Assembly: GCA_017409845.1 (NCBI GenBank)
Contig: JAFQRY010000011.1
Span: forward strand, 124,001-188,000
Direction of reading: 5' to 3'
Length of the DNA stretch: 64,000 bases
Source of the DNA: Clostridia bacterium
Lineage (GTDB): Bacteria; Bacillota; Clostridia; Oscillospirales; Acutalibacteraceae
In this document: in pieces, positions 17,917-21,637 of the stretch
How positions within the stretch are numbered: the first letter of the stretch is position 1
Layout of the letters: the number at the start of each line of letters is the position of its first letter
The notes under the pieces: generated by a model
What the model was told of the DNA's origin: nothing
What the model saw: the letters and a program-made list of their open reading frames with translations, nothing else
The model's database searches: none
Translations under genes and position numbers: made by a program

Positions 17917-17946
17917 TTGACACCAAATGTAAATAAATGGTAAAAT
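17917..17946 (+). promoter_or_regulatory. Promoter of the zinc-finger protein gene
   Basis: TTGACA, 18-base spacer, TAAAAT, 42 bases upstream of the ATG at 17988. Confidence 0.65.
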
Positions 17947-17987
17947 ACGAATAAAGAAACTGATTGTATGAAAAGGAGTGTAAAAAC

Positions 17988-18827
17988 ATGAAAAAACTTT
18001 TAAAGAAAAGCATTGCTGTTATTCTTGCGGTGACGGTTATTGTGTTTACCTCATTAACCGCTTTTGCGTTCACGAGCTGCACCGAGTGCGGCAGAATTTT
18101 TGAAAGCGAATCCGATTATTCAACACACAAAAAAATCTGCGTTTCAGAAAAAACAACTGATGCAATAACTTATTACTGTGGCTACTGCGAAGCTGTTTTC
18201 CAGACAAAAGAGCTTCTTTCCGCTCATATCGACGGCTGTGTGCTCAAGCCTGTCATTGCAACGACCGGCAACAACAACACCTGCCCTCATTGCCTTGATT
18301 CTTTTGATGTTGAGGCAGAATACAATAATCATATTCAGCTTTGCATGGCTGTTTATTCTTGCTCGAAGTGTGCCCAGGAATTCAGATCCTCTGCGGCTGC
18401 CGCAATTCACAAGATTGCCTGTGTTTTTGTTCCTTCCGAAATCAAAATTGAAATTTCCATCAAAAATAATCCGGGCTCGGCAGAAATCAAATACGGAGAA
18501 GTTCTCGTTCTTACGGCGGAAACAAAAAATCTTCCTTCGGGAGCTTATGTTGAGTGGAAGGCAGACAGCGATGTTGTCAGCCTTGAGCAGAGTGCTGACG
18601 GCAAAACCTGCAGAGTTGAATCCGTAGGTAACGGAACGGCAAAGGTTATGGCGAGAGTTGTTGATGCTGCGGGAAATCCCATTAAAACTCTTGACGGTGC
18701 AGAAATCTATGCAACCCAGACTATCGTTTCAAAGGGCGGATTCTTCTGGAAAATAATTTCTTTCTTCAAGAATCTTTTTAAAACAGACAGAACAGTTATT
18801 CAGTCGATTTTTGAGATGAGCATCTGA
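17988..18827 (+). CDS. Exported protein with four C2HC zinc fingers and an Ig-like domain
   Basis: 279 aa. A signal peptide (about 1-28, KKLLKKS then a hydrophobic stretch ending TAFAF) is followed by four fingers, all exactly C-X2-C-X12-H-X3-C: C31/C34/H47/C51, C64/C67/H80/C84, C99/C102/H115/C119 and C125/C128/H141/C145. Each also has Phe four residues after the second Cys, and three have Tyr or Leu three residues before His, the classical beta-beta-alpha hydrophobic core. Residues about 152-245 look like a bacterial Ig-like (BIG2-type) domain, and a Phe/Trp/Lys-rich tail (FFWKIISFFKNLFK, 252-265) may touch the membrane. AAGGAGTGTAAAAAC precedes the ATG; an upstream in-frame ATG (17964) has no site. 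The role is unknown; zinc binding outside the cytoplasm is inference. Confidence 0.88.
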   Translation: MKKLLKKSIAVILAVTVIVFTSLTAFAFTSCTECGRIFESESDYSTHKKICVSEKTTDAITYYCGYCEAVFQTKELLSAHIDGCVLKPVIATTGNNNTCPHCLDSFDVEAEYNNHIQLCMAVYSCSKCAQEFRSSAAAAIHKIACVFVPSEIKIEISIKNNPGSAEIKYGEVLVLTAETKNLPSGAYVEWKADSDVVSLEQSADGKTCRVESVGNGTAKVMARVVDAAGNPIKTLDGAEIYATQTIVSKGGFFWKIISFFKNLFKTDRTVIQSIFEMSI

Positions 18828-18876: not shown

Positions 18877-18924
18877 AAAAAGCTGATTTGCGGAGAACAC
18901 CTTTGCAGGTCGGCTTTTTATTTT
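18877..18924 (+). terminator. Possible terminator of the zinc-finger gene
   Basis: AAAAAGCTGA and TCGGCTTTTT can pair (one G-U pair) around a long loop, and the 3' arm is T-rich. Weak compared with other terminators here. Confidence 0.4.
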
Positions 18925-19037: not shown

Positions 19038-20036
19038 ATGGAATTGAATTTTGTTCAGCAGATTTTCTTCAAGCTTTTTGCCCTTATTATGTCAATGGTA
19101 TATTCATTCAACGGCGGCGTTGTTGCTCCGTCAACCGATGATATCATCAAGGCAAAGAATGAAGATGCAAAGCTTGTTTTCGCAACAGTTGCAGACCCCC
19201 AGGTTTCAAACTATATGTTTGGCAGATATCAGTCTTTCCAGGAGGCATGCATTGACCTTCGCAACGCAGACAGACTCGATGCAATTGTAGGTGTCGGCGA
19301 TATCGCAGAAAACGGTCTTGCAGAGGAATATCAGCTTGTTTATGATGAGCTCAAGGGCATTGCTCCCCGCTACATCATGGCGGAAGGCAATCACGACATC
19401 AGACTCCGTGCATACAGCCAGAGCTACAGCCGTTTTTCGGCATTCACAAACGCTCTTAACGGTGACACATCCATGACGGATAACGCTTATGCAGAAGGCA
19501 AATTCGCATATTCCGAAATCGTCAACGGTTATAAATTTATTGTTATGGGTTCGGATAAAATGGTGTTTGAAGAAGCATACATCAGCCCCGAGCAGATTGC
19601 ATGGATTGATGCCGAAATCGCATCGGTTGAAGACGGAATGCCTGTTTTCATTATCGTTCATCAGCCCCTCAAGCTTACTCACAATCTTCCCACAACATGG
19701 GGTAACGGCACAAACAAAGAAGCAGGCTCAATCGGCGACCAGAACGAAGAAGTTAAGGCTGTCCTCAGTAAATATGCTGCAGACAAAACCGTAATCTTTA
19801 TCAACGGTCATCTTCATGCAGGTTTCAGCCAGTACAGCTATGAGAAGATTGACGGCTTCCACTCATTCAACGCTCCCGCACTTTCAATCGAAAACGAAGA
19901 CGGTGAAGATGGCGGCAACGGCTCGGGTCTTACCTATATCGTTGAGGTTTATGATAACGAAGTTCTCTTCAGAGCAAGAAATTGCTGCACAGGCGAATGG
20001 CTCACTCAGTGGGATGTAACAATCCCTCTTAAATAA
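19038..20036 (+). CDS. Calcineurin-like metallophosphoesterase
   Basis: 332 aa. Binuclear-metal phosphoesterase fold: VADPQ (atypical first motif, normally DxH), VGDIAENG (GDxxE/D), EGNHDI (GNHD/E), VHQPL (His ligand) and NGHLHAG (GHxH). The substrate is unknown. The N-terminus has a hydrophobic stretch (FFKLFALIMSMVYSF, about 10-24) that may be a membrane anchor or signal. I chose ATG 19038 behind TTTGGAGGCATACAT; the in-frame upstream region is non-coding and overlaps the promoter. A second phosphoesterase gene starts 20 bases after the stop, so the two form an operon. Confidence 0.9.
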   Translation: MELNFVQQIFFKLFALIMSMVYSFNGGVVAPSTDDIIKAKNEDAKLVFATVADPQVSNYMFGRYQSFQEACIDLRNADRLDAIVGVGDIAENGLAEEYQLVYDELKGIAPRYIMAEGNHDIRLRAYSQSYSRFSAFTNALNGDTSMTDNAYAEGKFAYSEIVNGYKFIVMGSDKMVFEEAYISPEQIAWIDAEIASVEDGMPVFIIVHQPLKLTHNLPTTWGNGTNKEAGSIGDQNEEVKAVLSKYAADKTVIFINGHLHAGFSQYSYEKIDGFHSFNAPALSIENEDGEDGGNGSGLTYIVEVYDNEVLFRARNCCTGEWLTQWDVTIPLK

Positions 20037-20056: not shown

Positions 20057-21637
20057 ATGAAAAAGACGTTCATCAGAATTCTCAGCATCGTTCTCTGTCT
20101 TACTCTTGTTTCGGGCGGAGCAGCATTTTCGTCGGCTGCAAATCTTCCCGCAACAAACACAGACGCAGTTGCAACTCCCGATGCACCTGCAACCCCCGAT
20201 GCTCCCGAAGTTGTTGTAACAGATAATACACCCTTCCGTATTTCCGTTGCAGTCAACGGTGATACAACCTCATCAAAGGGTATCACATGGTATACCAAGG
20301 CAAACACCGCAAGCGTTGTAAATGTTTATGACGAAAGCGGCGTAAAGGTAAATGTTCCCGTTGCTTATGCAGAGGTTTTTGAATTTGAAGGCAACTATGT
20401 TCACAAGGCAACCGTAACAGGTCTTGCTGCAGGCAAAACATATTCATACGAAGTAGGCAACGGCACAGTATTCAGCCCCGCAGGAAAGTTTGTTACAGAT
20501 AACGGCGACAGCAAGTCGGAATTCATCGTTATTGCAGACATTCAGGCAAGCAACCTCAGAAATTTCCAGTCAGCGGCAAGAGTTGTTGAAACAGGCTTCA
20601 ACACCATGCCCGGTGCAGAGTTTATGATAACTCTCGGCGACTTCACAAACGACAGCACCAACGAAGAATGGGATCTCTATGACGAGGCAATGAAGGCTGT
20701 CAACCTCAACACAACAATCGCTCCCGTTGCAGGCAACCATGACGGTCTCGGCGTATGGCATTGGTTCAACAATATGTTTAACCTCGATACAACCGAAAGC
20801 GTTCAGAATCTCAACGGTGTTAACTATTCATTCGATTACGGCAACGCTCACATTGCTGTGCTCAACACAAACGACCTTCTTTCAATTTCGTTTGCTCAGC
20901 TTACATGGCTCAAGAATGACATGAACGGCACCGATAAGGACTGGAAAATCGTTTGCATGCACAAGTCACCCTATACCCTCGGCAAGGACGGCAAGTGGCC
21001 CGATGCTCTTTATCTCAAGAGATCGCTTGCTGCTGTTGTTGATGCTTGTGATATCGACCTTGTTATGAGCGGTCACGACCATCAGTATCTCAGAACTCAG
21101 CCCATGAGATTCAACATGGTTAACGAAAACGGTGCAACCTATGTTCTTGCAGGTACTGCAGGCACAAAGAGATACGGTGTCCGTAACTTCCTTGAAGGCT
21201 ACATGATGAATACCAAGCATATCGCTGCACTCACAACCCAGAATGACGGTCACTACTGGGACGGCGAAACTCACGAAAAAGAAAATGAGCTTTATAAAGG
21301 CGGCATCTTCAACACAATCGCTATCGACGGCGGAAAGCTCAGCTTTAATTCATATGTTGTTTCCGACCTCAAAGAAGACGAAGAGGGCAACATCATTGAT
21401 GAAAATGAAGCTCCCACCGTTACCCTCCATGACAGCTTCACCCTTGAAAAGGAAGTCGGTCAGAACGAAATCACCTTCACGGGCGATAACACAACAAGCG
21501 AAGCAGAATATTATCTCGGAGCAATCCCCAGCTTCTTCGGTCTTGCTGCTTACACATTTATTGAGTGGCTTCCCAGAGTGCTTGTAATGCTTCCCGAGCT
21601 TCTTGTTGATGTAGTTTTCCTTGACGGTTCATTCTAA
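20057..21637 (+). CDS. Exported purple-acid-phosphatase-like metallophosphoesterase
   Basis: 526 aa. Signal peptide about 1-28 (IRILSIVLCLTLVSGGAAFSSAA), a short Pro/Ala/Asp linker (TPDAPATPDAP), an N-terminal fibronectin/Ig-like domain typical of purple acid phosphatases (about 55-145), then the catalytic domain with IADIQAS, LGDFTND, AGNHDG, MHKSPY and SGHDHQYLRT. The C-terminus is hydrophobic (IPSFFGLAAYTFIEWLPRVL), suggesting membrane association. AAAGGAAAATAAAGAA precedes the ATG. It probably acts on phosphomonoesters or nucleotides outside the cell; substrate not determinable. Paired with the preceding smaller phosphoesterase in one transcript. Confidence 0.92.
   Translation: MKKTFIRILSIVLCLTLVSGGAAFSSAANLPATNTDAVATPDAPATPDAPEVVVTDNTPFRISVAVNGDTTSSKGITWYTKANTASVVNVYDESGVKVNVPVAYAEVFEFEGNYVHKATVTGLAAGKTYSYEVGNGTVFSPAGKFVTDNGDSKSEFIVIADIQASNLRNFQSAARVVETGFNTMPGAEFMITLGDFTNDSTNEEWDLYDEAMKAVNLNTTIAPVAGNHDGLGVWHWFNNMFNLDTTESVQNLNGVNYSFDYGNAHIAVLNTNDLLSISFAQLTWLKNDMNGTDKDWKIVCMHKSPYTLGKDGKWPDALYLKRSLAAVVDACDIDLVMSGHDHQYLRTQPMRFNMVNENGATYVLAGTAGTKRYGVRNFLEGYMMNTKHIAALTTQNDGHYWDGETHEKENELYKGGIFNTIAIDGGKLSFNSYVVSDLKEDEEGNIIDENEAPTVTLHDSFTLEKEVGQNEITFTGDNTTSEAEYYLGAIPSFFGLAAYTFIEWLPRVLVMLPELLVDVVFLDGSF

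Follow-up and report, generated by a model that had tools for sequence, protein, structure and literature searches.

Classical-type zinc fingers in a predicted exported protein of a Clostridia bacterium and their enrichment in its genus

The window analyzed here, a 64,000-nucleotide stretch of a Clostridia bacterium contig (Oscillospirales, Acutalibacteraceae), carries on its forward strand a gene for a predicted exported four-finger protein of 279 amino acids (17988..18827; ATG at 17988, stop codon ending at 18827). A predicted sigma-70-like promoter (TTGACA-18-TAAAAT, 11 of 12 matches in a consensus scan; 17917..17946) and a ribosome-binding-site-like AAGGAG, read directly from the sequence (17973..17978), precede the gene on the same strand, and an intrinsic-terminator-like hairpin of 19 pairs is predicted 3' of it (18877..18919, forward strand). 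These sites are to be read against the background of the scans, which gave 7 promoter-like sites compared with 3.4 in shuffles and 4 terminator-like sites compared with 1.2. The gene downstream has a promoter-like site of its own. In an NCBIfam search of the four-finger protein, nothing scored above cut-off.

The original prediction described four zinc fingers of the form C-X2-C-X12-H-X3-C with Phe at +4 from the second Cys, and this finger observation at 17988-18827 is confirmed. All four units fit the motif, Phe included, starting at residues 31, 64, 99 and 125: finger 1 (residues 31-51; 18078..18140), finger 2 (residues 64-84; 18177..18239), finger 3 (residues 99-119; 18282..18344) and finger 4 (residues 125-145; 18360..18422), all on the forward strand. 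The residue three positions before the His is Y, L, Y and A in fingers 1 to 4, respectively; the core is weak in finger 4, the weakest of the array. Among 200,000 shuffles of the mature sequence, one motif appeared in 88 and two or more in none. As had been anticipated, the profile search yielded a finger match: the whole protein reached 39.6 bits against PF00096 (zf-C2H2; E 5.4e-10), above the cut-off of 25.2, and 36.7 bits against PF13894 (cut-off 27). However, in a six-frame genome search scoring stretches singly against PF00096 (E ≤ 10), fingers 1 and 2 stayed under the cut-off with 18.6 and 18.1 bits, while fingers 3 and 4 were absent from the list, so that the zf-C2H2 family call depends on the summed array. 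The matches of fingers 3 and 4 to profile A5, compiled from 45 exported-type fingers of this genus (E 1.4e-7 and 3.3e-4), arise by construction, finger 3 being an A5 row.

The protein sequence alone matched classical fingers among PDB chains (best E 2.5e-4), and so did profile A2, covering the finger region (best E 4.3e-12). The AlphaFold2 model, built from a four-row alignment, contains the anticipated beta-beta-alpha unit in each of the four fingers, albeit at low confidence (pLDDT about 38-58); for a relative, L126, both fingers were likewise modelled as beta-beta-alpha, with block means of 73-78 over residues 41-80. In a Foldseek search with the model of the window protein, Ig domains and other sandwiches ranked first, and the CTCF fingers (8ssq_D) followed at rank 35 (E 2.5e-4, 150 columns), with an rmsd of 17.6 and a TM score of 0.13 indicating that the overall shape of the array is unmatched.

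C-terminal to the fingers, AlphaFold2 predicts an Ig-like domain (residues 155-249; 18450..18734, forward strand) with pLDDT of about 70-91, and the Ig-domain matches found by Foldseek are consistent with the domain initially proposed, although Pfam Big_1 (PF02369) stayed far below its cut-off (13.4 vs 34.9 bits). Similar stretches occur elsewhere in the proteins of this genome. The protein ends in the Phe/Trp-rich tail that had also been proposed, modelled by AlphaFold2 as a helix (residues 252-278; 18741..18821, forward strand), amphipathic with a hydrophobic moment of up to 0.58. This tail recurs at other C-termini, being common to four long proteins of the same genome with signal-peptide-like starts (L009:5300-9451, 1384 codons; L010:10851-14075 and L010:5257-8454, both on the minus strand, 1075 and 1066 codons; and L014:3249-8816, 1856 codons), in which it reads GFFxKIIxFFKxLFG and is preceded by an Ig-like stretch resembling that of the window protein. 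Parts of L002 and L006 have the appearance of BspA-type leucine-rich repeats by eye.

A pattern scan of genome_contigs returned 18 stretches, seven of which were confirmed, all from assemblies named Clostridia or Clostridiaceae bacterium and six of them from goat or water buffalo colon. These seven include three window-type relatives, L122 (99% identical), L123 (72%) and L124 (49%), the last being a second copy within the assembly of L122. In the resulting alignment of four window-type sequences, all 16 Cys/His ligands, and hence those of every finger, are kept in 4/4 rows, in line with the expectation that homologues would retain the pattern; finger 3 of L124 has the spacing C-X4-C. The comparison with L123 (dN 0.150 and dS 1.194 for the fingers; dN 0.178 and dS 1.583 for the Ig part and tail) shows purifying selection on the window-type protein. 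This type is rare in the genus: only 3 of 45 same-genus genomes contain full-length matches, comprising four genes (one in G000, two in G157 and one in G173), and counting weaker matches to the finger region as well raises the number of genomes to 17 of 45 (E ≤ 1e-3).

The finger gene had been tied to two metallophosphoesterase genes that lie beside it, one at 19038-20036 (PF00149) and the other at 20057-21637 (PF00149 plus a purple acid phosphatase N-terminal domain), the products of which have hydrophobic or signal-like N-termini by eye. This tie was not supported: among the three relatives, such neighbours occur beside the 99%-identical L122 alone, the surroundings of L123 and L124 being different, and promoter-like and terminator-like sites flank the finger gene individually. 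We therefore rejected a metallophosphoesterase operon as the key to function; around L122-L124, we found no conserved neighbour or partner of the window type. An origin from phages or plasmids was rejected as well, given that the protein (P0001) matched none of 50,697 phage and 72,556 plasmid records (E 0.01), and that none of 17 pattern stretches in viral_contigs was confirmed.

Genus enrichment of such fingers is apparent with PF00096, a profile independent of this work, which gave matches in 38 of 45 same-genus genomes at E ≤ 0.1, with 26 of 45 reaching 1e-3 by the best E-values listed. In the phylum, 5 of 398 genomes reached 1e-3, in a search that scored fewer candidates per genome (21/40 for the window's own genome) and in which that genome, with a best PF00096 value of 0.0117 on a deeper look, was unable to count; in the family, PF00096 matched 13 of 300 genomes at E ≤ 0.01, two of them same-genus. 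Profile A5, for which matches within the genus are partly by construction, detected fingers in 38 of 45 same-genus genomes at E ≤ 1e-3, and in 14 of the 15 with a completeness of 90% or more and a contamination of no more than 5%. At E ≤ 0.01, A5 matched 14 of 300 family genomes, five of which are the window's own or same-genus, and 5 of 341 class genomes, among them that of the window; together with the PF00096 score above cut-off, this agrees with the initial view of these units as classical-type fingers that are rare in bacteria. No shuffled copy of the 4424 ORFs from the same-genus loci described below matched A5, even at 0.1.

We inspected all 28 outside-genus loci from the phylum, family and class searches, two of which (L105 and L117) had no readable match ORF. 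Most of the remainder are non-fingers or have no signal-like start. In two genomes from one other genus of the family, L109:1336-2580 (-) and L111:1318-2475 (-) encode a membrane-anchor-like segment, a Thr-rich stretch and one finger near the C-terminus that, judging from this layout, probably lies outside the cell. A third genus contributes L112/L132 and L133 with one finger each. The finger of L132 is located mid-frame; that of L133 lies close to the C-terminal end of a long, cysteine-rich protein that begins beyond the locus. L138 has a signal-like start and lacks the finger His. Extracellular use of fingers is thus strongly enriched in the genus, though probably not wholly confined to it.

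Beyond what could be seen from the window, the genus encodes a multi-gene set of predicted exported finger proteins. Short loci around the best matches yielded 61 distinct same-genus finger ORFs (A5 E ≤ 1e-3), which are a subset of all matches; same-genus loci L002-L006, L015-L021, L024, L034, L035, L039, L040, L044 and L045 were left out of this set. By rule, a signal-peptide-like start is present in 53 of the 61 ORFs and absent from five, the other three being truncated at a locus edge. Among the five, L084, whose start codon is read as Leu, and L082, which follows a stop, appear to be exported on visual inspection. The three that stayed signal-less after this check (L053:1351-1605, L059:1492-1875 (-) and L060:1453-1737 (-)) are small and phage-type in appearance. 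Together with L103, L107 and L108, they make up a group of small, signal-less proteins, phage-like by eye, that occur both within the genus and in other genomes and carry a single C2H2-type finger close to the C-terminal end.

By eye, the family falls into several architectures: two or three fingers followed by amphipathic helices; two to three fingers with a helical domain and a PxTGS-hydrophobic-Lys end; four fingers with another helical domain; the window type, in which four fingers are joined to the Ig domain and Phe tail; and long proteins with single fingers near the Ig and Phe-tail module (L061 and L134). Ends of the PxTGS/hydrophobic/Lys kind, sortase-type or membrane-anchor-like, were observed in L007, L048-L050, L055, L056, L063, L071, L073, L081, L083 and L096. 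The window's genome itself contains further finger genes at L007 and L008. Two shared genes, found at L012:5502-8802 and in the matching parts of L125, L126 and L127, precede L007 and its relatives; by eye, their products are hydrophobic near the start.

Export of the window protein, part of the original prediction, is supported by a signal peptide recognized by rule (residues 1-27; 17988..18068, forward strand) that ends in the cleavage site AFA at residues 25-27. A lipobox-like AFTSC, recognized with a loose pattern, overlaps Cys31, and such a pattern covers the first finger Cys in 4/4 window-type rows and occurs somewhere near the start in 13 of the 53 exported-type ORFs. The protein might accordingly be a lipoprotein in which Cys31 is lipidated, finger 1 is no finger and zinc is bound by fingers 2-4. 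We consider this unlikely, in view of the clear AFA site upstream of Cys31, the presence of AxA in 50 of the 53 exported-type ORFs at varying distances from the first finger Cys, and the retention of Cys34, Phe38, His47 and Cys51 of finger 1 in all four window-type rows.

The search pattern fixed two Cys and the His but left positions 8 and 14 free in the 66 distinct exported-type fingers of X2/X12 spacing; Phe occupies position 8 in 50 of them, and Tyr, Leu or Phe occupies position 14 in 63. These preferences, unforced by the pattern, mark a finger core. Of 92 exported-type fingers scored at ligand four, 56 have Cys and 36 have His; such an exchange would be expected at a metal site but not in a disulfide. 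A redox or thiol role, with the CXXC pair of each unit acting as reductant or disulfide partner instead of binding zinc, is therefore very unlikely, the more so because His and the finger core accompany the Cys residues. Neither DsbA nor VKOR gave a match over cut-off in the window's genome (95.8% complete assembly), where the sole weak DsbA match (15.4 bits) falls in a reading frame that a longer ORF overlaps. For an anaerobe whose surroundings offer little oxidising power, zinc would be a plausible cross-link.

Classical fingers are mainly readers of nucleic acids, and the fingers described here could in principle bind DNA or RNA extracellularly or, like a host-directed binder, once inside another cell. 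The finger region, however, has a net charge of -5; helix positions -1, 2, 3 and 6 read SSDT, TELA, VAEN and SAAI in the four fingers, and in the 66 exported-type fingers these positions are basic in 16 of 264 cases and acidic in 85 of 264. The linkers, of 12, 14 and 5 residues, are irregular and lack TGEKP, the Kruppel-type linker. With an acidic region, few basic reading residues and such linkers, DNA reading is unlikely and nucleic-acid binding of either kind highly improbable; contact with proteins or other ligands is better supported, and the acidic helices would fit the protein-protein contact role suggested at the outset.

Extracellular capture or buffering of zinc, whereby surface fingers would bind the metal and pass it on or sequester it, had been suggested too. 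The four sites per chain and the wide occurrence of related proteins in the genus would suit such a role, but finger sites hold zinc structurally, and by eye no zinc transporter lies beside the copies read, the P-type ATPase beside L008 matching a calcium (PMCA-type) model above its cut-off. We scanned the 53 exported-type upstream regions with six box patterns, the Zur boxes being of the B. subtilis type. Zur-type boxes were not enriched (9 of 53 vs 7.65 expected; longer form, 2 vs 2.05), nor were AdcR- and CzrA-type boxes, and the best Zur match of the window gene departs from the B. subtilis 7-1-7 box at 6 positions. Fur-type (6 of 53 vs 2.4 expected) and PerR-type boxes (16 of 53 vs 5.8 expected) were in excess, which we do not take as regulation, the upstream regions being both AT-rich and related to one another; base composition and common ancestry may account for it. 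The excess nevertheless weakens the case against zinc control, given that a Clostridial Zur box could resemble these AT-rich boxes. On balance, zinc capture is not favoured and appears rather improbable.

The best explanation, which we hold with somewhat more confidence than doubt, is an exported display protein retained at the surface and equipped with zinc-stabilised contact modules. The signal peptide, a function assigned by rule, would send the protein out of the cell, where four zinc-stabilised beta-beta-alpha units would project as protein-contact modules, with the Ig-like domain as a spacer; the amphipathic Phe-rich tail, its function likewise assigned by rule, may keep the molecule attached to the membrane or wall. 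In this anaerobe, zinc would take the place of disulfides in cross-linking small exported domains, and the genus would have put such fingers onto several different C-terminal parts. Whereas the motifs, the rule-based export signal, the shared C-terminal module, the kept ligands and the genus enrichment can be read from the sequences, we infer zinc loading, surface retention, and the contact role and its partner.

In the six closest pairs, from two architectures, the C-terminal part is 88-94% identical and the finger regions 41-75%; fingers are likewise less kept than the C-terminal part in a third architecture (L007 and relatives). The lower amino-acid identity of the fingers is compatible with relaxed constraint and with diversifying selection alike. 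Diversifying fingers as a general rule are contradicted by the three-finger type L084/L085/L087, in which fingers are the better kept part in 3/3 pairs (62/77 vs 47/61, 58/77 vs 23/56 and 53/77 vs 22/56), and by the window type, in which the fingers and the Ig/tail part evolve alike. Recombination of finger cassettes was considered, Nei-Gojobori dS in the three close pairs of L055, L050 and L056 being 3.7 to 5.2 times higher in the fingers than in the C-terminal part, and was rejected, counts at fourfold sites being unsupportive (Fisher p < 0.05 in 3 of 24 pairs, lowest 0.023, uncorrected). A broader reading, possible but doubtful, is that the genus built a secreted repertoire of varied classical-type finger arrays, used as interchangeable recognition modules on several conserved C-terminal parts, with non-ligand residues changing faster in several, not all, architectures, and that an oxygen-free, oxidase-poor envelope enabled this by keeping cysteines reduced. 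If so, classical fingers would be used extracellularly and independently of DNA.

Classical zinc fingers are regarded as intracellular, mostly eukaryotic, DNA-reading units. The window protein shares with classical C2H2/C2HC fingers (PF00096 and PF13894; PDB Aart 2i13, PRDM9 5v3g and ZIF268 1zaa) the spacing, the hydrophobic core positions, a beta-beta-alpha fold predicted at low confidence and significant profile matches. Unlike these, it is bacterial, exported by rule, acidic and poor in basic reading residues, has no TGEKP, and is fused to an Ig-like domain and an amphipathic tail; the constant TGEKP-like linkers and DNA-reading helix residues of Kruppel-type DNA-binding proteins are both missing here. 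Profile A2 also matched B-129 (2wbt_A; E 3.4e-4), an archaeal-virus protein and a C2H2 case outside eukaryotes; it differs from the window protein in being viral and is not known to be exported. Kistimonas, from a phylum other than that of the window's genome, provides a bacterial comparison. For Kistimonas genomes (Endozoicomonadaceae), an enrichment of zinc finger proteins is reported, and these are treated among the eukaryotic-like proteins of symbionts, in passages that make no mention of signal peptides (PMC12491435). Ros/MucR proteins are also bacterial and have a Cys2His2-type zinc site, but Ros is a DNA-binding regulator with a 9-residue spacer and a larger beta-beta-beta-alpha-alpha domain (PMC9779718), whereas the window protein has a spacer of 12 in 4/4 fingers and a signal peptide.

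A search of the open-licence literature, weak as evidence given its strict terms and with subscription papers outside its scope, named no exported classical fingers in bacteria. Genus-enriched exported finger arrays, if real, would mean that the fold is used extracellularly as a zinc-locked scaffold, and would make testable the general question of how strict anaerobes, having no disulfides to rely on, stabilise small domains in the proteins that they export. The ORF L128:10236-11669, which resembles a metallophosphoesterase by eye, terminates in CPYCGEAH followed by a Phe-rich tail, and may thus place another small zinc knuckle next to the same kind of tail.
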